Assembly: GCF_036669915.1 (NCBI RefSeq)
Contig: NC_089322.1
Span: forward strand, 19,330,219 to 19,394,218
DNA length: 64,000 nucleotides
Direction: 5' to 3'
Source of the DNA: Pocillopora verrucosa
Lineage: Eukaryota; Cnidaria; Anthozoa; Scleractinia; Pocilloporidae
The position numbers and the translations under genes were made by a program. The notes beneath the pieces are model-generated. The model saw nothing but the letters and a program-made list of their open reading frames with translations. It was not told the DNA's origin and searched no databases. Shown one piece after another: positions 3,718 through 56,416 of the stretch (position 1 is the first letter of the stretch; each line of letters opens with the position of its first letter).

Positions 3718-4010
3718 GGGTCAGCATTAGATTCCATCCACCAAAACCACCTTGGTCGAGAGGGAATGAGATGGAATGATGGACAACTCATGACTTGTTA
3801 TACTAAATAAAAATTACGAAGCTACGACAACATGCCGACTTATCCCGATGACCTAAGTGTATCATTTGTTTGGGAAATTGCGTTAAAACTTTTTACTCAA
3901 GAAATGGTAAGTATTAATTTATTGTTCGATTGTAGTATTATAAAACATTTTACGCAATTTTATGCAGATATTTCACGTATTTAAAAGGTGCCCAGATGTT
4001 ACGTAGTTTT
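3718..4010 (+). repeat. Left terminal inverted repeat
   Basis: This is the left arm of the element 3718-7356. It begins GGGTCAGCATTAG and runs through the exon-like piece MPTYPDDLSV...FTQEM to the donor at 3907, then to the sequence acgtagttttggtagatgtc. The right arm matches over almost its whole length with few mismatches. Confidence 0.65.
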
Positions 4011-5940
4011 GGTAGATGTCATTAGGGAACATCCACCAAAACTTTGACCAAAACCATCAACAATATATTTTTTTAATTTTATCTATAGCCACTGTTAGAT
4101 GTTCAGGGAGACAAAAGATTTATACCACTAATTAGCAGTTAGTGCTCTGGCTAATTATTCTTTATGGTGCACAATTGCTGACCGACCAAACGTTCATAAT
4201 GATTATCATAACTTAATTAACACATAGAATAAAGTGGTTTTGGTGGATGTTTCTCTCCATCCACCAAAACCACCATAGCAATTTCTGCTACTTCCTTATA
4301 GAAGACTGATGTGACCTGCTATTTGGAGTACATAACCACAATCTATTTCTTTGTATGTAGAGTTTTTGCAAAGTTCTTGAGTCAGCACCTTTTATTATTG
4401 AAACCGTAATCATAACATGGTGCACAGTATAGAATACAAAAGGTTCTGGTGTGGTAATCGTGTAATCTTGAAACAGGAGAGTTTTTAACTGACTTAAACT
4501 GATTTAAACAGACATTTGCAACAAAATTCCAGGTCCAGAAATTTCTTCCACTATTTCTGCTAAAGTCATAACCTTTAAGTACAACAAATCAGCACATTAG
4601 TTATTGTTATCAGGGGTCTGAAAATCCTATAAATCTTTCACATTTATTTCAAGTAACCTTTAATTTCACATGGATGAATAAGTATACGTTCAAGATGCAG
4701 AATGTCTTACATTTTACAAACTATTTCCCTTTTTATGGATAGACAGTGAAAGGCCTTTGCCACATTGGTGAATCAAACCATTGTATACCATGCATTTTGT
4801 GATAATTGTTTGTTTTTGCTCACAATATCCAGAAAAATGGAGGGGATAAATTGGTTAAAATTGAATAACATTGGAAGATCAAATTAACTTTGTACTGTTT
4901 AAAATTCAGTTTTGGTTTCTTGCTTATTCCAGCCTCTTAATATTCAAAAGCATTCCTTGTCATTTTTGTGTTCTTCTGTGTACATAACTTGAAAAATAAA
5001 CACAGAGAAAGGAAACCACAAAGAATTAAACTTGAAGCTAAAGCAAAGTTTAAGTTGAGCCATAGCTGATCCAAATACTGAGCACTTTGTATTGTAACCC
5101 ATTTAGCAGTAAAGTTTATCTATATGTCTGCCAGCTTGTCACAAGTCTTACCCCTCTCCTTCAAAGGTCTTTATAAATACATTTTTCTTTGGGGTCCCTA
5201 ATTGATGATAAGTATATTACAGCTCCTCAATTTTCCTCTTTCAAGACAAGGTTACTCTAAATTTAACAAAGTAATGGACTTGATAAAACTCAAACTATAA
5301 CTCAGCTGGCTGCTACTTGCAACCTTAATTTCTAGATATCATTATACAATAATCAATATGTTATGAAAAAGAACCCTAATGCTTAATTTTGCAGTAATCA
5401 CCTTCCTCCTTTTCATTTGCAGACCAGACTGGAACCTATATAGGTGTGTTTGCTTGTTTTGAGTGGGGATGGAAGAAAAGGAGTCATGCCGCATATCTGA
5501 TTTATTAAATCGCATTTGTTCTGTTTATACATGAGTAGAACTACCTTGTTCTCTGAAAAAAATAAAATTTCTCGCATTTTTATCTGTGCTTTGCAGTCAA
5601 ACTTCCTTGTGTCTTGGACAAGAAATCTTATTTTCTTGAAAACAAAACCTTTGTTTCCAGCCTTCTGTAATAGGTAAATATAATTGTGTAAGATGAGTGA
5701 CAGTGTATTTCTCAAGTTATTTTTTGGAATGTGACAAAACGGAAGTGTCATAGCGTGATAAGGAGCAAACATATGATTGCTTGATAGAAAGCAAAAAATG
5801 CAGAATTGCATATATTTTCTCCTTTGTCAGCAGCATATGTTAGTGAAAAGTTCTTATAATTGTTAACTTCTAAACCATCTTCAATTTAGCCAAGATTGAA
5901 CTGTTATCACGTTTGTCATAAAAGTATTCTGAGATCAATG

Positions 5941-6650: not shown

Positions 6651-7063
6651 CCTCTCGACCGAGGTGGTTTTGGTGGATGGAATCTAATGCTGACCTCTTC
6701 CTTCGAAAGCTGAACGGAAGCACATGGTTGTTGACGAAGTTGACGTTTCCTTTTCTCGTATTTGATTGGTTCCGAGTCTTTCCGGAAATTAGTTGTGTGC
6801 CACGAGCTGTTGGCTTTGTCCATTTCTCAAATCCGATTGGTTCCAATATTCCCCAGAGGAACGAATTTAACCCGAAAGTATTACACCCGAAAGTATTACA
6901 GCTACCGAAAGTATTACACTTTGAGAATAATTCATGTAACGTGTCACGAAATGGAATCCACGGTGAAACGTCATGAGAAAATCCGCGATTTTATCTTATA
7001 TGAAGTAATGGTCGCGCGTTTTGCAGCTTATCATTGTGTCTGCATGCAAATGCAGCAGACACA

Positions 7064-7356
7064 AAAACTACGTAACATCTGGGCACCTTTTAAATACGTG
7101 AAATATCTGCATAAAATTGCGTAAAATGTTTTATAATACTACAATCGAACAATAAATTAATACTTACCATTTCTTGAGTAAAAAGTTTTGACGCAATTTC
7201 CCAAACAAATGATACACTTAGGTCATCGGGATAAGTCGGCATGTTGTCGTAGCTTCGTAATTTTCATTTAGTATAACAAGTCATGAGTTGTCCATCATTC
7301 CATCTCAGTCCCTCTCGACCAAGGTGGTTTTGGTGGATGGAATCTAATGCTGACCC
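7064..7356 (-). repeat. Right terminal inverted repeat
   Basis: This is the reverse complement of 3718-4010, ending ...GAATCTAATGCTGACCC at 7356. Family unit 1 begins directly after it, so the element's edge lies about 104 bp upstream of the ATG at 7461. Confidence 0.65.
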
Positions 7357-7460
7357 TCCCAGTCGCTTGCCTAGGAGAGCTGCCATCTTGTACTTGTTGT
7401 CTTTTCAAGTCTGGTTCAATCCATCTCTTTAAAAACCATCGTCCTCGATATTTAACAACC

Positions 7461-8810
7461 ATGATTCAGAACTTTATTGAAGGGTACGAAAGCGTAATAA
7501 ACGTCTGCTACTATCTTGGTATTTTACTTCTTACGAGCGCCCTCGCTATGGTTCCATATTGGACATATAGAAACTTCAGACAGAAGGATCGAAATTACAA
7601 GGAGAGTTGCAGACAGGAGGATCGAGATCACAAGGAGAGTTGCAGACAGGTGAATAGAGATCACAAGGAGAGTTGCAGACAGCAAAAGCTGCTAGACCAG
7701 GAAATTTCCAAACAGGCTGATCGGCTGTACCAAACGGATTGCAAACAGAAAAAGCGAACAGAATATCAGAATCTGGAATGGCGCCTATTCGCGAAAGAAA
7801 TTTACGAAAAGTACACAGGGAGTCAAGACATCCTAGAGAAATTGTCAAAGGTAAAGAACACTGCTGAATGTATGCCAATCCACTCTGAGGTAACAGGCCT
7901 CGATGTGTTACGATACATGCTTTCCAATGCTAACTACCGCAATTTTGAGAGCAAGTCACCTGAGTTGAGGGCCCTTCGTAAAAACTATTTCGGGATTTTC
8001 TCTCTACTAGAATACTGTTCTGCCTCGCTTCCCTCTGGAATAGCGCCAGAAAACATAATGAAATATTTAAGAGAATTGGTGGAAGAGTTGTGGAAGGTAG
8101 TAGAGCCTTTCCTCGCAAGTGAAGAACAAAGGATCGCTTTGAAATGTCGTGAACGTTTTGGCAGTAACAGAGCATCAAATACAGCGACTGAGCATGACAC
8201 AAGAAGAGAGAGCGAGGTTGATGTGAAATCCATTATTCCGTATGTTGACAGCTTACAGTTTGGTGGTTCTGATGCTAAGATGTTCCTAATATATTTGCCT
8301 GGGGTGGACAAAGCCTTGGAAGATTGCAATGACAATGAGAGAAAGAATCTCCAGTTTCTCAGAAAACTAAACAATTATCTACAACTTGAGACACAATCTG
8401 CCACATTCTTCAGTGAACATCAGGCAAAACAGCCTGTTGGATCGGTTGAGCAGATCAGGAATCATGATAGCAATGAAGTAATTCTAATGAAAGTACGACA
8501 TGAAGTCCGTCTGTACATCCATCTGATCCTGAGCCAAAGCCGGAACATTTCAGAAAATGAACAAGTTAAGAGAAACATAAATAGTCTGCATGAGATTTAT
8601 GTGAACAACATGACATCAAAACCAATGGAGGATCAGATTAAAGAAGTTTCTTGCCATGTCCATAGAAAATTGGAGGCTATTGAGAAGGACCTACCAGAAG
8701 ATCTAAGAGACCAGGACTTCCTCAAAATGTTGAGGGAGTTAGAAAAATATCTGCCAAAACTCAGTTCAGAGGAGAATCTTTGTGGTGAAACAGCTGACAC
8801 CCCTGTATAA
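7461..8810 (+). CDS. Hendecad-stalk membrane protein, paralog 1 (subfamily A)
   Basis: An intronless 449-aa protein of a family I do not recognise. Residues 1-12 are short and acidic (MIQNFIEGYESV). Residues ~13-34 are a membrane segment, followed by basic WTYRNFR, which suggests the long C-terminal part faces the cytosol. Residues 41-106 are six exact 11-residue repeats of the type QEDRDHKESCR, coded by 33-bp DNA repeats (7581-7778), with Cys at 50, 61, 72 and 94. Residues 107-449 are predicted all-helical with TGLDVLRYML, FGSNRASN, YVDSLQFGG and HEVRLYIHLIL, the motifs kept in all paralogs. An upstream Met at 7347 is in frame, but alignment with the other copies and their conserved leaders puts the start at 7461. 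A transposon edge lies ~104 bp upstream. Compared with the copy at 13730, nearly all differences change the protein. Confidence 0.8.
   Translation: MIQNFIEGYESVINVCYYLGILLLTSALAMVPYWTYRNFRQKDRNYKESCRQEDRDHKESCRQVNRDHKESCRQQKLLDQEISKQADRLYQTDCKQKKRTEYQNLEWRLFAKEIYEKYTGSQDILEKLSKVKNTAECMPIHSEVTGLDVLRYMLSNANYRNFESKSPELRALRKNYFGIFSLLEYCSASLPSGIAPENIMKYLRELVEELWKVVEPFLASEEQRIALKCRERFGSNRASNTATEHDTRRESEVDVKSIIPYVDSLQFGGSDAKMFLIYLPGVDKALEDCNDNERKNLQFLRKLNNYLQLETQSATFFSEHQAKQPVGSVEQIRNHDSNEVILMKVRHEVRLYIHLILSQSRNISENEQVKRNINSLHEIYVNNMTSKPMEDQIKEVSCHVHRKLEAIEKDLPEDLRDQDFLKMLRELEKYLPKLSSEENLCGETADTPV
7581..7778 (+). repeat. Six in-frame 33-bp repeats (hendecad stalk)
   Basis: Six consecutive 33-bp units encode residues 41-106. 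The first three are nearly identical (QKDRNYKESCR, QEDRDHKESCR, QVNRDHKESCR); the last three are more diverged. The unit boundary is set by Q at position 1 of each repeat. The copy at 13850 has three units, a difference of exactly 99 bp. Confidence 0.85.
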
Positions 8811-9603
8811 AGTTTGTACCTTATCCTTGTTGTTTTTGTATGATAATGACACGGTAATACTTAGATAAATTCAGGCCTTGCTTAATTATAGTAAGCCCAA
8901 GCAATTCAGTTATGAATATATCTGAGTTTGAATTAGCAACAGTTCCTTGTAATTAGTGTAATTAAGTATGAGAAAGACTCCAGTATGTTGTAAAAGGTTT
9001 ATTCGTGTGTTGTGAATGCAAACCTCAGAAGGATCCCCTTTTGTGTTTATTCATGATATATTGCAGACTTAGTGTACATGTACTCACTGCAAGGTTTTGT
9101 GTTCATGTATCATGCGATGTATGAGATTAGGATAATCAAACCTACAGTTAAATAGGTAAATGTCATCTTAATTCTACAACACTAGGCCACACAAGCTGAA
9201 ATAGATTAATTTTTTGCCAGAGAGTGTGTTTCCATCTCTATAGTGTTCCATTTATATTATGGCAGTTACACTTCATTTAATAGTGCTGAACCTATTTTTC
9301 TCACGAGGGACACCTTCAAAGGTTTAATGTATCCTTTAAGATGGTACAGCAAATGTCACCAGCAGTTCCTGACCCCTAATGAGACATGTAAATAATGTTG
9401 AATTAAAAATTAAAAAATATTCAACCTAACCGGCAAGGCAGATGTAATGTTTGGCAGATGAGTGCTCAGTGACCCTCAGTATTTCCTCAGTGAAAATCAT
9501 AGCTGCTATCTTTTAAATTTTACAATGGTGGAAGACAGGGGAGAGTAAGAACCAAGGGGGTGAGCAAGGGTTAAAAGGAAGGAGATGGGAGAGGGTGGTC
9601 CAT

Positions 9604-9815
9604 TTAACCCTTTAGCCCTCAAGATCTGATTGCTAATTCTCCCCTCTAGCTGCTATACATTTCCATACAAATAAGTAACAAAAATTTGGTGTTAGATCAA
9701 GACAACAACTTCTACCTGATAAGTTTGAGTATTCTCGTCACCTGTTTCCTGGATAATGTATAGATGTTACAGAGAGAAGTTACATGTTAATCACTTCGAG
9801 GAGTTAAAGGGTTAA
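9604..9815. mobile_element. TTAACCC-ended MITE, type A
   Basis: About 210 bp with ends TTAACCCTTTAGCCCTC and its inverted form GAGTTAAAGGGTTAA. The middle carries GATCTGATTGCTAATTCTCC and ATCAAGACAACAACTTCTACC, seen again at 15771, 43690, 50789 and 63277, and truncated at 37440. There is no coding capacity. It is a non-autonomous DNA element by structure. Confidence 0.65.
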
Positions 9816-10239
9816 GAATAAAGATAATATCTTCTGGCACTTTTCAATGAAATTTTACTAATTAAAAAAAAAACAAAGCAATTGAACTAACTAACCAAAT
9901 ATTAAGAATATTGTGGTAAATTTTTTGGCTGAACTAATTGTAACATTCAATTAAATAAAAGACTACTACAAAGAACCAATGAGAAGTCAGAGTATTTGTA
10001 ATAGTAATAGGACCCAGTGGAGTTCAATCTGGTCTGTGATTAAAGAAGTGATGAACAAAATCAGATGACTATGAGGTTGGAGTCTAATTTGTCAATTATG
10101 AGTATGATTACAGAAAGAATTGGACAACATGAAGTCCTGTTACCAATTGATCATAACTTATTGTTACCTTACAGTTTTAGAAAGTAGTCTTTTTGTTGCT
10201 ATGGTTTGCATTATGTTTATTTTTGTTAATGGTTTTAAC

Positions 10240-10443
10240 TTAACCCCTAATATCAGTATGCATATTCTCCATACTGTCCATCATACATTTCTTTCAGTGC
10301 TGATGAGGAGAATTTGTTTAACAATCTAGAGCCTCTTTCATTAATGATCATTTCCTTTGTTCTTGTGACCTTTAAGTGTGATTCAGGGAAGATATTGCAA
10401 GGAGAAATTAGATGTTAGTCATTCTTTGGAGTGAAAAGGTTAA
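10240..10443. mobile_element. TTAACCC-ended MITE, type B
   Basis: About 204 bp. The core includes ATCAGTATGCATATTCTCCA, GAGGAGAATTTGTTTAACAA and GGAGAAATTAGATGTTAGTC. Other copies of the same type are at 16407, 38309, 42710, 52058, 54083 and 62534. It is non-coding. Confidence 0.6.
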
Positions 10444-13205
10444 TGTATTTCCTCGAAATATTAGTACCCAGGCGCTTTTTCAAAATTTCAGCTTGAGGAG
10501 GGGTGCTTACTAGAAGTAGGACACTTATTCAAGGGGGGCACTTCTCAAGTTAGCACAGCAATAGAATTAAAATTTAAAGAACAGATAATGCTCATTAAGG
10601 AACTCTGTTAGCACATGGAGATAGGAATGAGGAAGAAACTATTATCTTGTGCTGATTCCTTTGTAGTTGATTCTTAAAAAGTTGTAAATAAAGTGGCAGT
10701 AGAAATAGGTTTCTCTTGAGTTCTTACTATTTATGAAAGTGGAGAGGGGGGTGGGGGGCTTATTTGCTTATTCGAGAGGGACGCTTGTTTGACATTATGG
10801 GTAATTATTAAGGGGGGTTGGTGCTTTTTATAGTGTGGGAGCTTTTCTGCCCAGCTTTCAGTAGAGCATGGTCAATGAGTTTAAACTCAGAGTTGTTGAT
10901 TTTTTCAAGAAAAATTGACAATCAAATCCAGCTCTTGGGTAGGGCATTTAAACACAATTTAATGCCCTGGGCGGGGTATTTAAGCAAGCCAATCTTTAAA
11001 AGTTCACATGCCCATGGGTTGCCTATATTAAATCTTTGAATTGACCTACGCATAAAATTTTGACAGTTGGTGCGTGACATAGTCATGAACATGCATGTGG
11101 ACCTCAGGCCATCAATTGACACCAAGATTTTCTCAGCTTAAGGAGTTACCATCAGAGGAAGTGTGCAAAAAAAGCCACTTGCAACTTCAAGAAGATCAGC
11201 CAATAAAAAAGTGAATGTTTACGCATTTCAGACTATCATCTCATCCATGATCAGTTTCCTCAGTATCAACTGTTTTTATCTCTTGTTCCAGATGGAATAC
11301 AATGATTGTTACCTCAAAGTTATTCAGTGCGCTTTGCGGGATTGCCACCTTTTTTGTAATACTTTTTGAGTCTTGCCTCAATCATTTCCAGTTTTGGCAT
11401 TTTTTTTCTCTGTTATGGTGGGAATTTTCCAAATTGTCCTTTTGGGCTTGAAGTGCTAACTAGAAGGAAAACCTTGGTAGAACCTATTCAGTATCACATG
11501 GGCCCAAATCCCTCACCACTTGTCCATTAACTTCCAAAAAGAAAGGATGGGCTCTGTCTCATGAGTTTAAACTGGTGCCATTTTCTTCACGTTCATGTGT
11601 TATTCAAAATGAATGGCATCAGCCTCATTCAGTCTTGCTTATTTCAATAGAATGCTGCCATGTGAAATGAATTTTAAGTCGAAGTGGACTATGATGTTCA
11701 CAGATTAAAATAATGCAACTTGATTTGATTGTTAAAACATGAGATGAGTGACACAATAAATGGATAATAACTAAGGGGGCTGGAACTCCTTGTTTCTTTG
11801 GAATGTTGAATACAGTATTTCTGTCTGATTTAAAAATGTATTCAAACCAGTTTTACTTGTATTTCACTTTGCTAGAAATGTCGTGATCCTTCAATTGTTA
11901 TTTCTTAATTGCGATTGATGATACAAATTAACTTTTATGTTCTCTGTTGTTTAAGGAGATGTGAAGTGACCCCTATACATGTAGTTGGTACTATTGACAG
12001 AATAGATTGGTGTGACATTTACTGTGGCAAGCTGGTATTCCAGAGATTGTCATTAGTACCAGAAGCTTACTGTTGGTTTAAACTATCAGTCTTTTGTTCT
12101 CTCTATGCAACTTGCCTCGACTAGCTTATGCTGTATGCAAATTTTGTCTATTCTTTGTGATATTATGCTATTATGCCATATGCAAATTGTGTCTATACTT
12201 TATTTGTAACTGTAAAATTACCAATTAAGTTTTGAAATTTTGTTCAAATTTCATTGGATAAGAATATGAGGAGAGATTAGTTGAAATATTGTCATATTCC
12301 TTAACAGTGTCTGAGCTTCCAGGATGAGAGCTATAAAATTTCTTAAGTGACTGATGTAGGATTTGTCTGCCATAAAATTGGAGCAGCTAATCACTCGCCT
12401 TTAAAACTATAAATTACTTCAAATAGGCAGCCAAGTCGATGCCCACTATTAAATAATATGCAACATCAAAGTTCCCTTTTGACTTAAGTCTCTAAAATCT
12501 GATTGATGTAAATCATCCATTTTCATAAAGAGATCAACTAAACTCTCCACATTATTTTAATCTGACTTCATTCAGTCTTGTTCCCAGGAAAAAATTGCTT
12601 TATCCTCAGTAATAATCTTACTAGTTCCTTGTTTTTTGGTTGGTAAAATGAGTCTTTTCAGACCATTGAGAGGATACATGAATTTGGTATTTGTTAGGAA
12701 ATAATTGATTTATTAACTATTCTCATTACAGAAGGAAGCAGAAACTACTACTTGTTTTACTTCACAATTTTGCCACCTTTCACACAGCATATCTAGAAGC
12801 TAGGCATGTAATCTTCTGATTTGATGGAAAGCAAGGAGAGAGAATGTGAACTAATCATTCCCATTACCGGCCACACTTTTGGGCTTGCTAGGCAGCGGCT
12901 GGTTCCTGTCTTTGTACACACTTCTCCACTCATAGTGAAATTCTCCTCTGTTGAGGCTTAGGGGTAGTTTGACCAAAATAAAATTTTCAAATGTTAATGA
13001 AATTTGTCGAATTAATAATCAGATCTGATGATATTTACGACACTAATGATTGAAAAGAACTTCTTTACTCTGAGGAAATCTATAATTAATCCTCCATTTC
13101 TGACAAGCTCTCTTTGATGTAACGACCGTATTTTTAGTACTGACGTTATCTTACTTTTCTTTAGTTGACATTGACCTCTTTTGTTTTGGTAATTTTGTTT
13201 TTGGT

Positions 13206-13343
13206 CGAAGCCATTTTACGGAAAGGTCTCGGCAAAAAATTGAGCCTCTCAAAACTATTTCGACGTCACTCTGAACATTAAATAGTCAAGCTTCCTCAGT
13301 AAATACGAAAATCGAGCCTGATTTTTGTGAAGAAAGTTTGACC
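13206..13343 (+). promoter_or_regulatory. Conserved 5' leader of subfamily B (orphan copy)
   Basis: About 138 bp match, as reverse complement, the sequence just upstream of the minus-strand gene at 47126 (47127-47268). Shared landmarks are GAAGCCATTTTACGGAAAGG, ATTGAGCCTCTCAAAAC, a GACGTCACTC box and GCCTGATTTTTGTGAAGAAA directly before the ATG. It is probably promoter plus 5' UTR. Here it now drives only the truncated copy 13344-13508. Confidence 0.6.
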
Positions 13344-13508
13344 ATGATTCAGAGGTTTGCTAAAGAGTACAAGGAGTCAATAACCCTTGTCTACTTTTGC
13401 GGTAACCTTCTTCTTATCATCGTCGTCTTTGTAGTTGGAACCATTTACTTCTGGTCGAAGGGACCAGGAGAGGCGCTTACAGAAGGATCGGGAATAACAA
13501 AACATTGA
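13344..13508 (+). pseudogene. Truncated subfamily-B paralog
   Basis: The start and membrane segment match the gene at 47126 almost exactly (MIQRFAKEYKESITLVY, then GNLLLIIVVFVVGTIYFW). Right after the Trp a small deletion shifts the frame within the first 11-residue repeat, and the frame stops at 13508. The underlying DNA still shows the repeat (agggaccaggagaggcgctt) for a short way, then homology stops. About 85% of the protein is gone. It could still make a 54-aa membrane peptide, but nothing suggests it is kept. Confidence 0.75.
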
Positions 13509-13729
13509 TATTTCATTGTTCCGCTTCGTTACATGCGGTCAACAGTACTCACGTGCAAGGAAAATAACTTAGGAACTTTTACTATTTTTATAATCCAATC
13601 ACAGGTCGGAGCCATTCCTGTCTTCAGTCGCTTCTCCAGCCAAGGAGAGCTGCACGTTGTAATTTTTGTCTTTTCAAGTCTAGTTCAATCCATCTCCTTA
13701 AAAACCATCGTCCTCGATATTTAACAACC

Positions 13730-14977
13730 ATGATTCTGAACTTTATTGAAGAGTACGATAGCGTAATAAACGTCTGCTACGGTCTTGGTATGTTACTTCT
13801 TACGAGCCTCCTCGTCCTAGTTCCAGCTTGGACAGTTAGAAACTACAGAAAGGAGGATCGCAATTACAGCGACAAATGCAGACAGGAGGATCAAGATCAC
13901 AAGGAGAGTTGCACACAGCAAAAGCAAACAGAATATCAGAATCTGGAATGGCGCCTATTCGCGAAAGAAATTTACGAAAAGTACACAGGGAGTCAAGACA
14001 TCCTAGAGAAATTGTCAAAGGTAAAGAACACTGCAGAATGTATGCCAATCCACTCTGAGTTAACAGGCCTCGATGTTTTACGATACATGCTTTCCAGTGC
14101 TAACTACCGCAATTTTGAGAGCAGGTCACCTGAGTTGAGGGCCCTTCATAAAAACTATTTGGCGATTCTCTCTCTACTAAAATACTGTTTTGCCGTGTTT
14201 CCCTCTGGAATAGCGCCAGAAAACATAATGGAACATTTAAGAGGATTGGTGGAAGAGTTGTGTGAGGTAGTAGAGCCTTTCCTCACAAGGGAACAACAAA
14301 GGATCCCTTTGAAATGTCTTGAACGTTTTGGCAGTAACAGAGCATCAAATACAGCGACTGAGCATGACACAAGAAGAAAGAGCGAGGTTGATGTGAAATC
14401 CATTATTCCGTATGTTGACAGCTTACAGTTTGGTGGTTCTGATGCTAACATGTTCCTAATATATTTGCCTGGGGTGGACAAAGCCTTGGAAGATTGCAAT
14501 GGCAATGAGAGAAAGAATCTCCAGTTTCTCAGAAAACGAAACGAACAACTTGAGACACAATCTGCCACATTCTTCAGTGAACATCAGGCAAAACTGCCTG
14601 TTGGATCGGTTGAGCAGATCAGGAATCATGATAGCAATGAAGTAATTCTAATGAAAGTACGACATGAAGTCCGTCTGTACATCCATCTGATCCTGAGCAA
14701 AAGCCTGAGAAGTTCAGAAAATGAACGATTTGAGAGAAACATAAATAGTCTGCGTGAGATTTATGGGAACAACAACATGGCATTAAAAGCAATGGACGAT
14801 CGGATTAAAGAAGTATCTTGCCGTGTCCGTAGAAAATTGGAGGCTATTGAGAAGGACCTACCAGAAGATCTAACAGACCAGGACTTCCTCAAAATGTTGA
14901 GGGAGTTAGAAAAATATCTGCCAAACCTCAGTTCAGAGGAGAATCTTTGTCGTGAAACAGCTGAAACCCCTGTATAA
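13730..14977 (+). CDS. Hendecad-stalk membrane protein, paralog 2 (subfamily A)
   Basis: An intronless 415-aa tandem partner of the gene at 7461, with the same layout: acidic N-terminus (MILNFIEEYDSV), membrane segment ~13-34, stalk, then the helical domain with TGLDVLRYML, FGSNRASN, YVDSLQFGG and HEVRLYIHLIL. The stalk has three 11-residue repeats (residues 41-73) instead of six. The leader ttttcaagtctrgttcaatc and ...gatatttaacaacc before the ATG are shared with paralog 1. By eye, after the stalk there are about 48 amino-acid-changing and 3 silent differences from paralog 1, plus two small in-frame indels. The N-terminal 40 codons also differ almost only at replacement sites. The frame is fully open, which argues for a working gene. 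Confidence 0.8.
   Translation: MILNFIEEYDSVINVCYGLGMLLLTSLLVLVPAWTVRNYRKEDRNYSDKCRQEDQDHKESCTQQKQTEYQNLEWRLFAKEIYEKYTGSQDILEKLSKVKNTAECMPIHSELTGLDVLRYMLSSANYRNFESRSPELRALHKNYLAILSLLKYCFAVFPSGIAPENIMEHLRGLVEELCEVVEPFLTREQQRIPLKCLERFGSNRASNTATEHDTRRKSEVDVKSIIPYVDSLQFGGSDANMFLIYLPGVDKALEDCNGNERKNLQFLRKRNEQLETQSATFFSEHQAKLPVGSVEQIRNHDSNEVILMKVRHEVRLYIHLILSKSLRSSENERFERNINSLREIYGNNNMALKAMDDRIKEVSCRVRRKLEAIEKDLPEDLTDQDFLKMLRELEKYLPNLSSEENLCRETAETPV
13850..13948 (+). repeat. Three in-frame 33-bp repeats (hendecad stalk)
   Basis: These encode KEDRNYSDKCR, QEDQDHKESCT and QQKQTEYQNLE (residues 41-73). The block keeps the first, second and last repeat types of paralog 1 and lacks the middle three. Confidence 0.85.
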
Positions 14978-15770
14978 AGTTTGTGCCTTATCCTTGTTGT
15001 TTTTGTATGATAATGACATGGTAATACTTAGATAAATTCAGGCCTTGCTTAATTATAGTAAGCCCAAGCAATTCAGTTATGAATATATCTGAGTTTGAAT
15101 TAGCAACAGTTCCTTGTAATTAGTGTAATTAAGTATGAGAAAGACTCCAGTATGTTGTAAAAGGTTTATTCGTGTGTTGTGAATGCAAACCTCAGAAGGA
15201 TCCCCTTTTGTGTTTATTCATGATATATTGCAGACTTAGTGTACATGTACTCACTGCAAGGTTTTGTGTTCATGTATCATGCGATGTATGAGATTAGGAT
15301 AATCAAACCTACAGTTAAATAGGTAAATGTCATCTTAATTCTACAACACTAGGCCACACAAGCTGAAATAGATTAATTTTTTGCCAGAGAGTGTGTTTCC
15401 ATCTCTATAGTGTTCCATTTATATTATGGCAGTTACACTTCATTTAATAGTGCTGAACCTATTTTTCTCACGAGGGACACCTTCAAAGGTTTAATGTATC
15501 CTTTAAGATGGTACAGCAAATGTCACCAGCAGTTCCTGACCCCTAATGAGACATGTAAATAATGTTGAATTAAAAATTAAAAAATATTCAACCTAACCGG
15601 CAAGGCAGATGTAATGTTTGGCAGATGAGTGCTCAGTGACCCTCAGTATTTCCTCAGTGAAAATCATAGCTGCTATCTTTTAAATTTTACAATGGTGGAA
15701 GACAGGGGAGAGTAAGAACCAAGGGGGTGAGCAAGGGTTAAAAGGAAGGAGATGGGAGAGGGTGGTCCAT

Positions 15771-15982
15771 TTAACCCTTTAGCCCTCAAGATCTGATTGC
15801 TAATTCTCCCCTCTAGCTGCTATACATTTCCATACAAATAAGTAACAAAAATTTGGTGTTAGATCAAGACAACAACTTCTACCTGATAAGTTTGAGTATT
15901 CTCGTCACCTGTTTCCTGGATAATGTATAGATGTTACAGAGAGAAGTTACATGTTAATCACTTCGAGGAGTTAAAGGGTTAA
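15771..15982. mobile_element. TTAACCC-ended MITE, type A
   Basis: The copy carried inside duplicated unit 2; identical to 9604-9815 by eye. Confidence 0.65.
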
Positions 15983-16406
15983 GAATAAAGATAATATCTT
16001 CTGGCACTTTTCAATGAAATTTTACTAATTAAAAAAAAAACAAAGCAATTGAACTAACTAACCAAATATTAAGAATATTGTGGTAAATTTTTTGGCTGAA
16101 CTAATTGTAACATTCAATTAAATAAAAGACTACTACAAAGAACCAATGAGAAGTCAGAGTATTTGTAATAGTAATAGGACCCAGTGGAGTTCAATCTGGT
16201 CTGTGATTAAAGAAGTGATGAACAAAATCAGATGACTATGAGGTTGGAGTCTAATTTGTCAATTATGAGTATGATTACAGAAAGAATTGGACAACATGAA
16301 GTCCTGTTACCAATTGATCATAACTTATTGTTACCTTACAGTTTTAGAAAGTAGTCTTTTTGTTGCTATGGTTTGCATTATGTTTATTTTTGTTAATGGT
16401 TTTAAC

Positions 16407-16610
16407 TTAACCCCTAATATCAGTATGCATATTCTCCATACTGTCCATCATACATTTCTTTCAGTGCTGATGAGGAGAATTTGTTTAACAATCTAGAGCC
16501 TCTTTCATTAATGATCATTTCCTTTGTTCTTGTGACCTTTAAGTGTGATTCAGGGAAGATATTGCAAGGAGAAATTAGATGTTAGTCATTCTTTGGAGTG
16601 TAAAGGTTAA
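16407..16610. mobile_element. TTAACCC-ended MITE, type B
   Basis: The copy carried inside duplicated unit 2; one clear difference from 10240-10443 (GTGTAAAGG for GTGAAAAGG). Confidence 0.6.
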
Positions 16611-19287
16611 TGTATTTCCTCGAAATATTAGTACCCAGGCGCTTTTTCAAAATTTCAGCTTGAGGAGGGGTGCTTACTAGAAGTAGGACACTTATTCAAG
16701 GTGGGCACTTCTCAAGTTAGCACAGCAATAGAATTAAAATTTAAAGAACAGATAATGCTCATTAAGGAACTCTGTTAGCACATGGAGATAGGAATGAGGA
16801 AGAAACTATTATCTTGTGCTGATTCCTTTGTAGTTGATTCTTAAAAAGTTGTAAATAAAGTGGCAGTAGAAATAGGTTTCTCTTGTGTTCTTACTATTTA
16901 TGAAAGTGGAGAGGGGGGTGGGGGGCTTATTTGCTTATTCGAGAGGGACGCTTGTTTGACATTATGGGTAATTATCTAGGGGGGTTGGTGCTTTTGATAG
17001 CGTGGGAGCTTATCTGCTGAGCTTTCAGTAGAGCATGTCACAACTCACAATCGTTGATTTTTCAAGAAAAATTGACTATCAAATCCAGCACTTGGGTAGG
17101 GCATTTAAACACAATTTAGTGCCCTGGGAGGGGTATTTAAACAAGCCAGTCTTAAAAAGTTCACTTGCCCATGGGTTGCCTAGGGGGGATATTAAATCTT
17201 TGAATTGACCTATACATAAAATTTTGACAGTTGGTGCGTGACATAGTCATGAACATGCATGTGGACCTCAGGCCATCAATTGACAACAAGATTTTCAGCT
17301 TAATGAGTTACCATCAGAGGAAGTGTGCAGAAAAAGCCACTTGCAACTTCAAGAAGATCAGCCAATAAAAAAGTGAATGTTTACGCATTTCAGACTATCA
17401 TCTCATCCATGATCAGTTTCCTCAGTATCAACTGTTTTTATCTCTTGTTCCAGATGGAATACAATGATTGTTACCTCAAAGTTATTCAGTGTGCTTTGCG
17501 GGATTGCCACCTTTTTGTAATACTTTTTGAGTCTTGCCCCGATCATCTCCAGTTTTGGCATATTTTTTTCTATGTTACAGTGGGAATTTTCTGAATTGCC
17601 TTTTTGGGCTTGAAGTGGTAACTAGAAGGAAAACCTTGGTAGAACCTATTCAGTATCACATGGCCCCAAATCCCTCACCACTAGTCCATCAACCTCAAAC
17701 CAAAACAAATACATGGGCTTGTCTCATGAGTTTAAACTGGTGCCATTTTCTTCATGTTCATGTGTTATTCAAAATGAATGGCATCAGCCTCATTCAGTCT
17801 TATTTATTTCAGTAGAACACTTCTGCCATGCAAAATGAATTTTGAGTGGAAGTACAAATTATGACGCTTTCAGATTAAAATAATCCAACTTTCTTGGATT
17901 CTTAAAACATGAGATGAATGGTACAATAAATGGATAATAACTTAGGGGGCTGGAACTCCTTGTTTCTTTGGAATGTTGAATACAGTATTTCTGTAACATT
18001 TAAAAACGAATTTCAAGTCAAAAGTATATTCAACCCAGTATTACTTGTATTTCACTTTCTAGAAATGTCTTGATCCTTCAATTGTTATTTCTTAATTGCA
18101 ATTGATAATAGGAATTGACTTTTATGTTCTCTGCTGTTTAAGGAGATGTGAAGTGACCTCTGTACATGTAGTTGGTACTATTGACAGAATGGATAGGTGT
18201 GACATTTACTGTGGCAAGCTGGTGTTCCAGAGATTGTCATTAGTACCAGAAGCTTACTACTGGTTTAAATCATCAGTCTTTGTTCTCTCTATGTTCATAT
18301 AGCTTATGCAATATGAAAATTTTGTCTATTCTTTGTGACATTATGCTATATGCAAATTGTGTCTATACTTTATTTGTAACTGTAAAATTACCAATTAAGT
18401 TTTTGAAATTTTTGTCCAATTTCACTGGATAAGAATATGAGGAATGATTAGGTGAAATATTGTTATGTTCCCTAAGAGTGTCTGAGCTTCCAGGATGAGA
18501 GCTATAGAATATTTTAATTGACTGATGTAGGATTTGTCTGCCATAAAATTGGCACAGCCAAACCCTTAGCTAAAAAACTATAAATTACCTCAAATAGGCA
18601 GCCAAGTAGATGCCCATTACTAAATAATATGCAAATCAAAGTTCCCTTTTGACTTAAGTCTCTAAAATCTGATTGATGTAAATCATCCATTTTCATGAAG
18701 AGGTCAACAAAACTCTCCACATTATTTTAATCTGACTTCATTCAGTCTTGTTCCCAGGAAAAAATGGCTTTATCCTCAGTGATAATCCTACTAGTTCCTT
18801 GTTTTTTGGTTGGTAAAATGAGTCTTTTCAGACCATTGAAAGGATAAACGAATTTGGTATTTGTTAGGAAATAATTGATTCATTAACTATTCTTAATACA
18901 AATGGAAGCAGAAACTACTGCCTGTTTTACTTCACAATTTTGCCATCTTTCAGAAAGTATATTTAGAAGCTAAGTATGTAAAATTCTGATTTGATGGAAA
19001 GCAAGGAGAATGTAAATTAATCGTTCCCATCACTGGTCACACTTTTGGGCTCATTAGGCAAATGTAACAGGCTGGTTTTCCTTGCCTTTGTACACACCCC
19101 TGCACTCAAGGTGAAATTCTCATCTGTCGAGGCTTTGGGGTAGTTTAACCAAAATAATCATGAAATTTTTTGCATCATTGATCATATCTAACAATATATC
19201 GGAGACTAATGATTGAGAATAACTTCTTTACTCTGAGGAAATCCACAATTGTTCCTCCATTTCCAACGAGCTCTCAGCTCTCAGACC

Positions 19288-19592
19288 TGGTAATTTTACA
19301 GTTACAAATAAAGTATAGTCACAATCTGCATATAGCATAATAGCATAATGTCACAAAGAATAGACAAAATTTTCATATAGCATAAGCTAGTCTAGGCAAG
19401 TTGTATAGAGAGAGAACAAAAGACCGATAATTTAAACCAACAGTCAGCGCTTGCCACAGTAAATATCACACCTTTCCATTCTGTCAATAATACCAACTAC
19501 AAGTATGGATGTCACTTAACATCTCCTTTAACAGCAGAGAACATAAAAGTTAATTCCTATCATCAATCGCAATTAAGTAATAACGACCGTAT
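19288..19592 (-). repeat. Inverted copy of 18085-18395
   Basis: The stretch from ggtaattttacagttacaaa to caattaagtaataacgaccg reads, as reverse complement, like 18085-18395 (same landmarks: acttttatgttctctgctgt, tgacatttactgtggcaagc). The two arms face each other across about 0.9 kb. It marks the end of unit 2 and the start of unit 3's upstream region. Confidence 0.6.
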
Positions 19593-20158
19593 CTATATCT
19601 GCCGTGGTAAACTTACTTTTCTTTACTTGATATGATGGACATTGACCTATTTTCTTTTGGCCATCGGCCCCGCCGGTTGTGGTTCATGTCAAAAAAACTT
19701 TCGAAATAAAACAGAAGTCTGCAAACTTAAATTCGTCGCTAGCAGAACTATTGAAGCTCTACAAAACGCTCACAGGAAAGTGAGTGCCTCAAATGATCAA
19801 CCATAACTTGAGATAGCAATGAAACGATCAAAGTATACTATGAAATACGTCTGCGCTCTTCGGCAGGCCTCTTGCATTTTTCACAAATAACATCTAAATC
19901 GATCGCCCAGACAATCTTAAAACAAAGACTCGAAGTTGTTTGTATACTCTTTTGCTTTTTGAAAATCACTTCCTTCCACGCACCACACGACAATTTTAAG
20001 ACTTTGACGCTTCCAACCAAGTTACAGAGGGAAAAATGACAAGAAAGGTGATGTCAAATACTCGATCCACTGTTGTTTTCCGACGCACTTTCTTCTTCAG
20101 CAGTAATTTAGCGAAGAACCGACGCAGGCGCATACCAGCGGTTCTCACATCAAATTAA
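19593..20158 (+). repeat. Upstream region of unit 3, shared with 39850-40680
   Basis: There is no gene here. Pieces match, inverted, the upstream region of the broken copy at 38779-39774. Examples are the ccgccggttgtggttcatgt region (against 40600), the clocked pair cgtctgcgctcttcggcagg (against 40410) and the gatccactgttgttttccga stretch (against 39920). It is therefore ancestral 5' flank of subfamily B units. Confidence 0.55.
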
Positions 20159-20342
20159 CAAATAGATTCCAAGCTGCCGCGCGTCCGTTCAGTAATACAT
20201 CACAGATGACGTCAAAATGTGGTAAGAACAAAAAAGTGGCACACGAAGCGCAGCCGATTGTGACATTGATGTTCTTACCACATTTTGACGTCCTCTGTGA
20301 TCTATTACTGAACAGACGCACGGCAACTTGGAATCTATTGTT
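20159..20342. mobile_element. Fold-back element, ~70-bp arms
   Basis: The left arm (20159-20230: aatagattccaagctgccg through tgacgtcaaaatgtggtaag) and the right arm (20271-20342) are reverse complements with few mismatches, leaving a ~40-bp loop. Each arm has a TGACGTC or GACGTCC box. It is non-coding and would form a hairpin. Confidence 0.65.
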
Positions 20343-20484
20343 TTATATAATAAAGAATTTTTAAAAAAAAGTTTTTTAATGATGACGTCATCTATACGTC
20401 TGTCCTCCAATAGATCATAAGTGAGAACCAATCAGAATGCGTGTATAACTGAGCTTATTATTATATTACAAAAATTGGATCAAT

Positions 20485-20604
20485 ATCAGTATCTGGGCAA
20501 TTGCCCACCTACCCCTCCCCTAACCCAACAACAATCTATTGATAACAATTTGGGGTAAATGTTGAGTTATGGGAGCGGTAGGTGGGCAGTTGACCAAATA
20601 CTGA
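20485..20604. mobile_element. Small fold-back MITE, copy 1
   Basis: About 120 bp. The arms CAGTATCTGGGCAATTGCCC and CCCACCTACCCCTCCC are answered by AGCGGTAGGTGGGCAGTTG and CCAAATACTGA. A second copy of the same element is at 62752-62860. Confidence 0.65.
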
Positions 20605-20639
20605 CAGAACGTAATGTAATCCCTCTCTGCTCTAAGCTT

Positions 20640-20677
20640 CCTAAATCGAGCCTGAGTTTCGTGAAGAAAGGTTGACT
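20640..20677 (+). promoter_or_regulatory. Conserved subfamily-B leader
   Basis: AATCGAGCCTGAGTTTCGTG followed by AAGAAAGGTTGACT directly precedes the ATG and matches the leaders at 13317, 47127-47156 and 39776-39806. This fixes the start at 20678. Confidence 0.6.
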
Positions 20678-21988
20678 ATGTTTCAGGCGTTTGCTAAAAA
20701 TTATGCGGAGTCAATAACCCTGGTCTATTATTGTTTTACTGGCCTTATTGCATTCGCAGCCTTTGCAATTGGAAACGTTTACTTGTGGAAAAGGGATCAA
20801 AAGAACCAGAAAGAGCGCAGTAAGGAGGAGAGGGAATACCAAGAGAGACGCCAAGAGTACGATCGGGAATGCCATGAGAGACGCAGAAAGGAGGATCGTG
20901 AACACCAAGACAGACGTTACCAAGAAGAATCAAGAGACCATCGGAGGCGGGAATGGCGCCAGTTCTCGGATCGAATCAACGCCGATTACAGCGAACTGAA
21001 AAGTAAAGACATCCCACGGAAAATTTCAAAGGTAAAGGACACTTTTGAACATATGCGAATCCACTCAACAGTAACTGGCCTTGATGTTTTACGATACATG
21101 CTCAACGATGATAACTACCGCAATTTAGTGAGCGAGTCACCTCACCTGCAGGCCCTTCGTGAAGACCTCCATATGATTTTCTTGCCGCTAAATGTCTGCT
21201 CTTCTTTGCTTCACTTGGGAGAAGTGCCACCATATATAAAGGAAGAATTAAGATTTGTGGTGGAAGAGTTGGGGAATTTAGCAAAGCCTTTCCTTACAGG
21301 TGAACAACAAAGGGTCGCTTTGAAATGTTTGGAACATTTTGGCAGTAACAGATCATCAAATGAACATGGTCAAAGAGGGGTGGAAGGGCTTGGTGTGCGA
21401 ATTAAAGCCATTGTTCCGTACGTAAACAGCTTACAGTTTATATCCATGGAAGATTGCGATTATAGCAAGTGCAAAAAATTTTCGTTTAATTTGAAAGAAT
21501 CGATTATGTTTAACAACCTCGGGAATCTCAAGTTTCTCAGAGAACTACTGGAGTATCTAAAAGGTGTGGCGCTCCTTGCCAGAATCTTCAGAGGACAACC
21601 AGCAGAACTGCCTGTTAAATCGATCGAACTGATCAACGACAGTGATAGCGATGAAGTGATTTTAATGAAAGTGCTCCATGAAGTGCGTCTATATATCCAT
21701 CTTATTCTGAACGAAAACCTATCCAGGGAAGATAATGAACGAGTTGAGAGGAACATAGAGCGACTGCACCAGCTTTATGAGAAAGGAGGGAAGGAGATCA
21801 AGTTCGAAGATGAAAAGATTAAAGGCATTTGTCAGCGCTTCATATTGGACCTCCAGAGAATTAAGAATGAAATACCTTCACATCTAATTAAGCAGGGCTT
21901 TGGCACACAGTTAGAGGATTTATACCTAAAGCAGCTTAGTCAAATGATGCTTGTTAAGAACCCTGGTTCAGGGGGTTCAGTAGTATAG
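20678..21988 (+). CDS. Hendecad-stalk membrane protein, paralog 3 (subfamily B)
   Basis: An intronless 436-aa member. Residues 1-12 are MFQAFAKNYAES; ~13-36 form the membrane segment (TLVYYCFTGLIAFAAFAIGN); basic residues follow it. Residues 38-92 are five 11-residue repeats (KEEREYQERRQ, EYDRECHERRR, KEDREHQDRRY and so on), rich in Arg/Glu; most of the regular cysteines of subfamily A are replaced by Arg. The helical domain keeps TGLDVLRYML, FGSNRSSN, YVNSLQF and HEVRLYIHLIL. It is closest to the gene at 47126. The end differs (MLVKNPGSGGSVV). A non-ATG in-frame start 6 bp upstream is possible, but the conserved leader favours 20678. Its 3' flank lacks the long shared block of units 1, 2 and 4. 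Function unknown. Confidence 0.8.
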   Translation: MFQAFAKNYAESITLVYYCFTGLIAFAAFAIGNVYLWKRDQKNQKERSKEEREYQERRQEYDRECHERRRKEDREHQDRRYQEESRDHRRREWRQFSDRINADYSELKSKDIPRKISKVKDTFEHMRIHSTVTGLDVLRYMLNDDNYRNLVSESPHLQALREDLHMIFLPLNVCSSLLHLGEVPPYIKEELRFVVEELGNLAKPFLTGEQQRVALKCLEHFGSNRSSNEHGQRGVEGLGVRIKAIVPYVNSLQFISMEDCDYSKCKKFSFNLKESIMFNNLGNLKFLRELLEYLKGVALLARIFRGQPAELPVKSIELINDSDSDEVILMKVLHEVRLYIHLILNENLSREDNERVERNIERLHQLYEKGGKEIKFEDEKIKGICQRFILDLQRIKNEIPSHLIKQGFGTQLEDLYLKQLSQMMLVKNPGSGGSVV

Positions 21989-22700
21989 TTGGCTGTAGAA
22001 GACCACTTTGAAAAGAGATCTCATGCAAATGCCAACTCTCTTAACTACTTTCCATATGATGGAATTATTTAATGGAATTATGTAATGAACTTATTTGATG
22101 AAATCATTCATGAAATTATATGATTAGGCAGTTTTTTAAAACTATATATTTTTATATATTATCTATAGACTATACTATCACAGTGTTTTTTCATTGCATG
22201 ACATTCTCAGAAAAAGAGGAAATCAATGATGTAATACAACAGAGACTTTCCCGAGGAAATGAGTCATAGCATTGCTGTTGTTTTGATGTCATATGATAGA
22301 TTTTCAACCAGTCAAAGACTTCACAATTTCACTTCACAATCGTGAAATTTTTCAGTAGAGATGGAGATGCCTTCATCACTTAAACAACTGGATCAATGCT
22401 ATAACAATGTCTGTGTTTACATTTGGATTTTGTGATGACCATAAGTGCGAGATGTTATACCATCTTATGAATGTATTGCTTACCATCAAAGTAGCTGAGT
22501 GATACTTTATTGAGTTCATAGCTACCAGGTTGATGATTGTAGCTTCTGGTGGTTTTCATTTTGTGATGTAATTGTTTGTTATTGAATAATATGTTTTATT
22601 AGCCTTAATGTTTGATGTTCTTTTTTGTAACATTTTTCTATATTCCTTTTGCTGTTCAGTCACTTTTTTCTTTGTCTTTTATGTAAGAGTACATTTTTGA
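21989..22700. other. Gap after paralog 3
   Basis: AT-rich. I see no gene and only weak similarity to the other units' 3' flanks. It would hold the 3' UTR of the gene ending at 21988. Confidence 0.4.
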
Positions 22701-25379: not shown

Positions 25380-25619
25380 TAAAAGTAAAACTTTTGGGAA
25401 ATGTATCCTCATTGTAAATTGACCAACAAAGGACTATTGCAATGCCCCTGTGAAGCTTAGAGTAAATGGAAACGCCCCAAGCATGTTCTTATTTTAAAAT
25501 ATTCATTTGCCTTTGGCCACTTACCGTTAAAGGACTACTCAAAAGATGCGTTTGTGCTAAATATTAGACCCTAGTTGCATGGATCAATTAAAGCCCATTT
25601 ATCACCTTTCTGAGAAAAG

Positions 25620-28600: not shown

Positions 28601-28900
28601 TTGTCTGTGGAAAAATCCGTGGTTTGCGCCACTTGTTTTAGAATGATTGCACAAAGAATGTGTTTTGCCTAAACATCGATTGAAGTCAGAGATCGATTGA
28701 AGTCAGTTTCTATCATTTCAGCCAAAAAGTCTGTAGTTTGGGCCACACGCCGTAACAAGTGATAGCAAAAAAGAAGCGTTTTGGCAAAACATTGAACTCA
28801 TTCTCATACATTGATTGAATTCAATTTTTCATATTTCTGCGAAAAAGCTCACAGATTAGCCCACCTACCGTAAAACGATTTCACAAGCATGCGTTTTGGC
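25620..28900. repeat. Satellite array, ~115-bp unit, about 25 copies
   Basis: The landmark CCGTAAAATGGTTGCACAAA recurs near 25820, 25934, 26049, 26169, 26287, 26402, 26507, 26621, 26737, 26855, 26948, 27066, 27181, 27308, 27402, 27520, 27638, 27751, 27866, 27989, 28100, 28214, 28329 and 28447. Most steps are 113-120 bp; two short units of ~93 bp occur (26855 to 26948, 27308 to 27402). Each unit also has TTTGCTAAATATTGGACTCA, CATAGATCGATTTCAGTCC, TTTTTCGCCTTTCTGCG and AGTTTGGGCCACATG. Units are most alike in the centre and decay at both edges. Since 115 is not a multiple of 3, the many open frames seen on both strands are by-products. Confidence 0.92.
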
Positions 28901-34625: not shown

Positions 34626-34681
34626 GGCTGGGAAGATCTTAGCCGGACTGTATCCTGGGAAGAGATCTAAGTGATTTCAAA

Positions 34682-38778: not shown

Positions 38779-39652
38779 TCACACTTTGGTTTCTTCAGGA
38801 CGATCTAATGATTGGTCTTCATTGTTCTCCCCATTGATTTCCAAAGGCAAAGAATCAGGAAGTTCTAATGATTCAACTCTCTCATTCTCCCCATTAGATC
38901 CCAAAGGAAAATGAGGCTGGCGGTACTGCTCAGAAGGCCGGAGACTTTGCTCAGAATGCAGGGGACTTTGCTCAGAATGCAGTGGATCCTGCTCAGAAGG
39001 CTGGGGGGGCGGAGGTGTAGTTAGAAATTTTGTCATTACTTCTTCCGCCCAGAATTTCCCAAAATCGCGAAAAAGCTCACCATCGTCAAGAACATCTGGA
39101 GAATCATTGACACTTTTTTGAAGATTAAATATACAATTCTTCAAAAATTCTTTGAACGCATTTTCTATCAATGTTCCCATTATTTCCTTATGAACCTGAC
39201 TTAGTCTATCCACATTAACTACTGTATTTGTTCCATCAATCTCCCATAGCTCTCTGTTGTTCTGAAGATGATGGATATAGTAACGTACCTCATGCAGCAC
39301 CATTGCGAGAACTACCTCATCGCTATCCTCGTCACCGATAGGGTCGGTCAAGTTTAGAGGCAGCTCTGCTTGTCGATCTTTAAACATTCTGACCAAAAAG
39401 GTCTTACCTTCTCCCTTTTCTAGATTATCATGGAGCTTCTGGAGGAAATTATGTTCGTTGTTTGGCATGCTCACATTAAACAAAATTTGGACTGGCTATA
39501 ATATACAGGAGGGGGTGGTGATGATGTTGAACTAGCCCTATGATCATTATCACCAAACTTTAGGCTATCTAAATACGGAATGTTTCCTTCAACCAACTCA
39601 TGAAGCTTTTTTTCTTCTTCTTCTTCTCCTCCTCCTCCTCCTCCTCCTCGTT

Positions 39653-43015: not shown

Positions 43016-43019
43016 TCTT

Positions 43020-43365
43020 TTATATTTTTCGGCACTTCTCCTAAATGGATCAATGAAGAGCAGAAATTTAGCTGAAAGGAGATCGTGAGGTGGTCCTCAC
43101 GGAGGGCCCTCAGCTGGGGAGACTCACTCGACAAATTTCGGAGGGGATCATCGGCGAGCCATTATCTCAAAACATCAACGCCAGTTGGTTCTGAATGAAT
43201 TGGAAATATTTCAAAAGTTTTCTTTACTTTTAACCTGTTCTCTAGGATCTGTTTACGTCTCAGACTGCTGTAATTTGTGTAAATTCTTTCCGCGAACTTG
43301 CACCATTCCCGCCTCTGTAGATCTCTTCGGTCTTCTTGGTCACATCTGCTTTGTTATTTACAGGT
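43020..43365 (-). pseudogene. Internal fragment of a subfamily-B paralog
   Basis: As reverse complement this matches the middle of the gene at 45780-47126 (about 46560-46900): the stalk end and the first part of the helical domain. Shared landmarks are tcttcggtcttcttggtcac, aaattctttccgcgaac and cttctcctaaatggatcaat (against cttctcccaagagaaacaac). Stops and indels interrupt every frame. It sits inside the 3' flank of unit 4, so a second gene once lay here or was inserted. Confidence 0.65.
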
Positions 43366-43389
43366 GTTTTTTTTTTCTTTTGGTTAGTT

Positions 43390-56372: not shown

Positions 56373-56416
<44 letters not shown>

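Follow-up and report, generated by a model that had tools for sequence, protein, structure and literature searches.

We describe here a cluster of apparently single-exon paralogous genes in the stony coral Pocillopora verrucosa, in which the copies of two types, p1 and p2, are shown to have been duplicated and converted and to be under diversifying selection at their replacement sites. The cluster is on contig C11 (NC_089322.1) and is partly contained in a window of 64,000 nucleotides (C11:19330219-19394218; positions without a contig name count from the first letter of this window). It is very highly probable that diversifying selection acts on the protein sequence of the p1/p2-type copies. 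A preliminary description of the window had claimed such selection for p1 and p2, and support for it comes from codon models, both pairwise and on trees, from simulations, and from an excess of replacement changes over noncoding divergence between p2 and a second copy of it, p2i.

A search of the genome (353,415,432 bases in 52 contigs) with p2 as the query gave 16 matching stretches, some of which are parts of one gene, and all of them are located within 103 kb (C11 19.274-19.377 Mb); this single cluster is the result of one search with one query, and a wider family may exist. Judged by the open frame, eight copies are intact, namely, p1, p2, p3, and p4 in the window (Table 1) and p1i, p2i, p4d, and p5 outside it. 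The other members are p3i, which has an 8-bp deletion near its start, the broken p6, and several fragments. For the comparisons below, we divided p1 by our own criteria into a membrane helix (residues about 12-30), a stalk (41-105), and a core (106-449).

In the post-stalk core of p1 and p2 (from position 7776), base-by-base listing and counting by the method of Nei and Gojobori (NG86) gave 50 replacement changes at 801 sites and three silent changes at 225 sites. The preliminary description had given about 48 and three, and the silent changes that it named (GCT/GCA, GTG/GTT, and GTT/GTA) are exactly those found. Under the codon model of Goldman and Yang (GY94), omega (dN/dS) of the core was 5.6, not at or below 1, and omega = 1 was rejected (P = 3.1e-4). 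When evolution at omega = 1 was simulated, an equally small silent share was obtained in 12 of 20,000 runs with the fitted kappa of 2.24, in 98 of 20,000 with kappa 1, and in 4 of 20,000 with kappa 4. The N-terminal part and the stalk, for which the same bias had been proposed, have 20 codons with a replacement difference and one with a silent difference. Among the amino acid differences in the core, 25 of 47 alter the charge. As a control, the unconverted noncoding flanks of p1 and p2 were read as pseudo-codons, and the replacement:silent counts ranged from 94:44 to 113:25 across the six frames.

Both frames are open, as had been stated (449 and 415 amino acids), and the two in-frame indels reported for the core are of 6 bp and 3 bp; an additional indel of 99 bp is in the stalk. 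In the p1-p2 and p2-p2i comparisons, the lengths of all eight coding indels are multiples of three; among the 18 indels of the distal flank, 4 are (P = 3e-4). The 6-bp indel is shared by the two comparisons and is probably one event seen twice; if it is counted once, seven coding indels remain and P is 7e-4.

Biased mutation or biased conversion (GC-biased gene conversion, for instance) might inflate the number of replacements, and the polarised core replacements do include more changes from AT to GC (38) than from GC to AT (21). However, the changes from GC to AT (21 replacement, one silent) are as one-sided as those from AT to GC (38 and two), the singletons in the flank are balanced (44:41), and a base bias should reach the silent sites too. 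We know of no mutator that avoids silent positions, and we consider this explanation extremely improbable.

Diversifying selection is supported most directly by the comparison between p2 and p2i. The genes p1, p2, and p3 are located in an inverted duplication with arms of 15 kb. They are on the right arm; the left arm (C11:19296171-19311243) is outside the window, about 26 kb to the left, and the identity between the arms is 96.5% overall. Noncoding DNA differs between the arms at 184 of 11,048 aligned sites (1.67%), and the coding differences are 14 of 1350 in p1, 46 of 1303 in p3, and 84 of 1248, with 84 gap columns in addition, in p2. In the core of p2 and p2i, the silent sites differ at the noncoding rate (4 of 228; P = 0.79), but the replacement sites differ about 4-fold more often (57 of 798; P = 2e-17, a value that is too small because the noncoding rate is uneven between the arms, 0.5% upstream of p1 and 2.3% beside p2). 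Relative to the adjacent 3' flank (45 of 1987), the replacement rate is about 3-fold higher (P = 5e-9), and the silent sites again match (P = 0.81). In these Fisher tests of the core against noncoding DNA, the NG86 counts (56.7 replacement and 4.3 silent changes) were rounded to whole numbers. GY94 gave omega 4.9 for this pair (P = 2e-4).

We also considered whether the pattern comes from the assembly, because copies were collapsed or joined as chimeras or because an allele was placed beside its locus. The divergence of the arms (1.7%) falls in the range of heterozygosity given for two corals (1.14 and 2.3%) in one report (PMC10236652), so the arms could be two haplotypes. On the other hand, the 142 kb examined around the cluster contain no N, the p1 and p2 units are 8.6% apart in the distal flank, which is too much for ordinary alleles, and sequencing or assembly errors are not expected to spare silent sites. 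Even if p2 and p2i were alleles, they would show the same selection. An artefact is thus quite improbable as the explanation.

The tree-based analyses gave the same result for the p1/p2-type copies. In the core of p1, p1i, p2, and p2i (341 codons gap-free in the four), 85 replacement and five silent variable sites were found. By branch, the replacement:silent counts were 22:1 for changes private to p2, 32:1 for p2i, and 23:2 for changes separating the p1s from the p2s; at omega = 1, a silent share of 23.6% would be expected, and each class is below it (combined P = 1.2e-4). Model M0 gave omega 4.4 for the four copies (P = 7e-6). For the core, P was 2e-5 when M1a was compared with M2a and 1.5e-6 when M8a was compared with M8; for the full gene, the values were 8e-10 and 5e-11, respectively. 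With eight copies (311 core codons gap-free in the eight), omega was 4.2 in the p1/p2 clade, 1.25 on the deep branches, 1.5 in the p3 pair, and 0.45 in the p4 pair. M2a placed 34% of the core sites at omega 3.4 (M1a/M2a, P = 5e-10), and about 15% of the sites were at omega 0 in the eight-copy core model. The copy p5 was included in the alignment and the tree but was too divergent for the pairwise counts and site models, from which it was omitted; the broken copies, namely, p6 and the fragments, were excluded. The last codon of p2i, p3i, and p5 was not in the alignment. We read p3i from an internal ATG past the 8-bp deletion, and its first N-terminal codons are out of register with p3.

Relaxed constraint, by which the duplicates would decay as pseudogenes with omega near 1, fits the broken copies in the cluster (p6, p3i with its 8-bp deletion, and three 5' stubs) and the Ka/Ks values near 1 of the deep pairs. 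Relaxation, however, may reach the neutral rate but not exceed it, and it is therefore insufficient where replacement divergence exceeds noncoding divergence. Moreover, omega = 1 was rejected for p1-p2, p2-p2i, and the four-copy tree, the frames are open, the coding indels come in threes, and a part of the core is held at omega 0. We regard relaxed constraint as very improbable.

Over 2 kb of the 3' flank, gene conversion has made the p1 and p2 units nearly identical. Between the p1 and p2 units, only 5 of 1990 sites (0.25%) differ in this flank (8811-10800), with no difference from 8853 to 10433, versus 182 of 2114 (8.6%) in the distal flank (10800-12950). Likewise, the sites that split both p1-type from both p2-type copies number two in 8811-10800 and 144 in 10801-12950; 25 such sites are in the core, and 23 of them are replacements. 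Because the number of silent changes in the core is low, we infer that the core was homogenised too. The site patterns in the core are clustered (31 runs versus 54.3 after shuffling; none of 20,000 shuffles gave as few), and segments have thus probably been exchanged between copies. Conversion alone is unable to produce the replacement bias.

The order of events may be either homogenisation followed by new replacements or shielding, in which the replacements date from the tandem duplication, conversion levelled the rest, and selection rejected the conversions that would erase amino acid differences. Both models require diversifying selection, and shielding is itself a form of it. Shielding is consistent with the replacement divergence of the p1-p2 core (6.5%), which is near that of the unconverted flank (8.6%), with the start of the zero-difference tract 43 bases past the stop codon, and with the mosaic site patterns, which indicate exchange of segments. 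However, with a replacement about every 20 bases, the silent differences near by should survive too, and no silent change between p1 and p2 is within two codons of a replacement, versus 8.2 expected for replacements that date back as far as the distal flank and were merely shielded from conversion (P = 3e-4). This absence favours homogenisation first and new replacements later. In addition, p2 and p2i need no conversion, as their silent divergence equals that of the flank, yet their replacement divergence is 3-4 times higher. Shielding is therefore rather unlikely as the account of the p1-p2 pattern.

In all four proteins of the window, hydrophobicity is highest in a segment near residues 12-31. 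A charged stalk comes next, which is encoded by a 33-bp tandem repeat (11 residues) in p1 and by a 66-bp repeat in p4; stalk indels of 99, 33, and 33 bp occur among the copies. The body after the stalk was predicted by AlphaFold2 to be helical, with low confidence. Positive charges follow the helix in p1 (YRNFRQKDRNYK) and less clearly in p4, and these suggest that the C-terminus is cytosolic. Each protein has two to three N-glycosylation sequons; one at residue 224 is common to p3 and p4, and none is common to all four. The replacement divergence of the core is highest from residue 351 to the end in p1-p2, p2-p2i, p3-p3i, and p4-p4d, but not in p1-p1i. Residues 241-350 are the calmest part of the core in p1-p2 and p2-p2i. 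In p1, a block at residues about 336-357 (DSNEVILMKVRHEVRLYIHLIL) is well conserved in p3i and all eight intact copies, and HE.R.YIH within it is retained even in p5; this block is a candidate functional motif in a fast-changing protein.

From these features, we propose that the N-terminal helix anchors each protein in the membrane and that a helical C-terminal body, carried on a coiled-coil stalk and most likely facing the cytosol, would contact a fast-changing partner of a microbe, a virus, or a symbiont. Tandem and inverted duplication would supply new copies, gene conversion would re-level silent and noncoding DNA among the units, and selection would then fix new replacements, often charge-changing and densest near the C-terminus in the most-changed copies. 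The outcome would be a different binding surface for each copy. We assign a probability of about 0.6 to this explanation as a whole, namely, a selected and converted family with an anchored helical body that meets a fast-changing partner. Host-microbe conflict as the cause of the selection is a possibility to which we give slightly less than even odds.

Self/non-self or gamete recognition by type II proteins with the body outside the cell, or a selfish toxin-antidote pair, might instead drive the selection. An array of tandem, membrane-anchored copies with conversion and fast divergence would suit such systems as well, and p4 is weakly similar to the Ly49 N-terminal model (E = 0.012; 16.6 bits versus the 31.5 needed). 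The positive charges after the helix in p1, and less clearly in p4, argue for a cytosolic C-terminus, the sequons are few, and no Ig, lectin, or other ectodomain was found in the Pfam and NCBIfam scans. We consider these drivers possible but doubtful.

Several points weigh against our explanation. The maximum likelihood codon analyses were made with our own GY94 code, with the branch proportions of M0 held, and not with PAML; the P values of the site models are nominal, and one tree was assumed although the copies are mosaics. In a 250-bp noncoding window from 16810, 17 of 245 sites differ between the arms, and the replacement divergence of the p2 core is no higher than this (P = 1.0). Furthermore, the contig may include p2 and p2i as two alleles of one gene. 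The other pairs have no clear excess: p4-p4d, in which p4d is a direct copy of p4 with 96.9% protein identity, has 11 replacement and seven silent changes in the core (omega 0.5); p1-p1i has too few changes (six replacement to one silent; P = 0.44); and the excess in p3-p3i is weak (omega 2.1, GY94 P = 0.06; codons 32:7, binomial P = 0.27). The differences between p3 and p3i are mostly in the C-terminal third (24 replacement changes at 230 sites and four silent changes at 64 sites), where the silent rate is raised as well, and this pair has one indel, of 8 bp, that breaks the frame. The replacement signal is thus carried by the p1/p2-type copies. As for the protein, the structural models, obtained by AlphaFold2 with four sequences from the window, are poor (pLDDT 43 for the whole p2 and 55 for a 169-residue p4 core). 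A second, fairly hydrophobic stretch (19-residue means of 1.74 at residue 144 of p2 and 1.72 at residue 167 of p4) may be a second membrane segment in these two proteins, and the proposed orientation is read from the charges.

As a side observation on p3i (C11:19296273-19297541), its long open frame from the internal ATG, downstream of the 8 lost bases near the start, still includes the membrane helix.

The family matched nothing in the libraries searched. In Pfam (best E 0.0081), p1-p4 and the fragment gave no match at the curated cut-off, and neither did a second search, with p4 and two cores as the queries and E as high as 10, in which the filters drop most matches above 0.1. NCBIfam gave none for p1-p4 (best E 0.0029). 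No credible match was found among PDB sequences with p4 or a four-sequence profile as the query (best E 0.48). Foldseek with the model of the 169-residue p4 core gave no match in PDB at E of 0.001 or lower, and we thus claim no fold. No relatives were confirmed in viral contigs or in bacterial and archaeal genomes. A likeness of the core to DUF4760 (PF15956) or HEPN was considered, had no support in Pfam, and was dropped; PF15956 was absent from the matches of both Pfam searches, that with p1-p4 and the fragment (E up to 1) and that with p4 and two cores (E up to 10). Peptide and pore-forming toxins of cnidarians are secreted by way of a cleaved signal peptide and have known toxin domains. No toxin family of Pfam was above the cut-off in p1-p4 and the fragment, and a secreted toxin seems unlikely, since the hydrophobic segment at residues 12-30 and the charged stalk read as a membrane anchor. 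In the literature we found no such family named, which is weak evidence of novelty, since the family has no name to search. The family may be undescribed.

Table 1. Features of the cluster in the window and positions of the sequences compared
Feature	Position	Strand	Remarks
Right arm of the 15-kb inverted duplication	7060-22087		Carries p1, p2, and p3
p1	7461-8810	+	One open frame, 449 amino acids
33-bp tandem repeat	7577-7682	+	3.2 copies; codes for the 11-residue stalk repeat
3' flank of p1	8811-10800		Conversion tract
Distal flank of the p1 unit	10801-13112		Unconverted yardstick
Relic 5' end of a p4-like copy	13204-13510	+	Just upstream of p2; 94.8% identity to 47266-46958
p2	13730-14977	+	415 amino acids
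3' flank of p2	14978-16967		Conversion tract, matching the 3' flank of p1
Distal flank of the p2 unit	16968-19275		Matches 10801-13112
p3	20678-21988	+	436 amino acids
Truncated family member	38779-39495	-	C-terminal part only
Decayed family fragment	42985-43413	-	C11:19373203-19373631; six in-frame stops
p4	45780-47126	-	448 amino acids

In the relic 5' end listed in Table 1, the frame breaks after about 40 codons. Three copies of a broken p4-like 5' end were found, upstream of p2 (13344-13503), upstream of p2i (C11:19304795-19304954), and in the spacer between the arms (C11:19320256-19320415). Just upstream of p1, 3718-4013 and 7061-7356 form a pair of 296-bp inverted repeats with 98.6% identity, perhaps a short mobile element. 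Elsewhere in the window, 25512-28909 is a large satellite-like array with a 116-bp unit, which was also read with periods of 232, 452, and 466 and in which the main rows match at 78-82%, and a 3-kb direct duplication (34630-37586 and 47996-50939; 95.5% identity) does not overlap the listed family members. In 53349-57486, a reverse-transcriptase element (PF00078 in 55281-55772) is located between two minus-strand open reading frames, one with a collagen repeat (57007-57486) and the other with the CTHRC1 C-terminal domain (53349-53780). The arrangement resembles a single CTHRC1-like gene with the element in an intron. An Rfam scan of the window gave no match at the gathering score.

Snake venom phospholipase A2 genes and primate opsin pairs are known examples in which coding changes exceed those in flanks or introns and in which conversion and selection act together. 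The former are secreted enzymes and the latter photoreceptors, and the likeness to p1 and p2 that we draw is one of evolutionary pattern. Restriction factors of the tetherin and TRIM types are positively selected antiviral proteins with coiled coils and a membrane or cytosolic location; the present family differs in that it has no Pfam match above the cut-off. Alr of Hydractinia is a type I receptor with an Ig-like ectodomain, whereas p1-p4 have no Ig or other Pfam domain above the cut-off, an N-terminal helix, and a predicted helical body. No NACHT, NB-ARC, or TIR domain, by which coral NLR/TIR receptors are defined, was found in the Pfam and NCBIfam scans of the family proteins. As for Ly49-like type II receptors, PF08391 was below the cut-off in p4, and no lectin domain was listed.

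Clustered, fast-evolving, and positively selected genes are a known kind, and in corals positive selection is reported in two studies (PMC2880987, PMC3102110). The former describes high replacement variation and a signature of positive selection in Tachylectin-2 of Oculina, a proposed immunity gene. Our family resembles it as a cnidarian gene with many replacements under positive selection. It differs in being an anchored multi-copy array with conversion and no known domain, whereas Tachylectin-2 is a lectin with a model based on a known structure and varies among alleles. The other study found positive selection to be more frequent in taxonomically restricted coral genes, with the immunity/defence, reproduction, and sensory classes enriched; orthologues of two species were screened there, whereas we compared paralogues in one genome with their flanks as the yardstick. 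In a third study (PMC10236652), tandem arrays of coral genes are mostly tied to immunity and gene conversion is held to be very rare. The arrays are alike, but the conversion tract in the present cluster is clear, and it bears on that view of coral tandem duplicates.

The present locus is an unusually clean case, as the duplicated block supplies its own neutral yardstick and selection is seen as a replacement excess over the flank. It is also compact, and resequencing of this single locus in natural populations is feasible. We tentatively raise the possibility, which we think unlikely rather than likely, that the cluster is an undescribed single-locus, hypervariable, membrane-anchored recognition system (for pathogens and symbionts or for self and non-self) of an early-branching animal, without a known immune domain; its copies, with the body facing the cytosol or at the surface, would be duplicated, levelled by conversion, and re-diversified by selection. 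Since no domain of the family is recognised by the libraries searched, it would escape any search for immune genes that relies on domains. Should recognition of microbes, symbionts, or self indeed be its function, the known recognition and defence proteins of the TIR, NLR, Ig, and lectin types would be joined by a further class.

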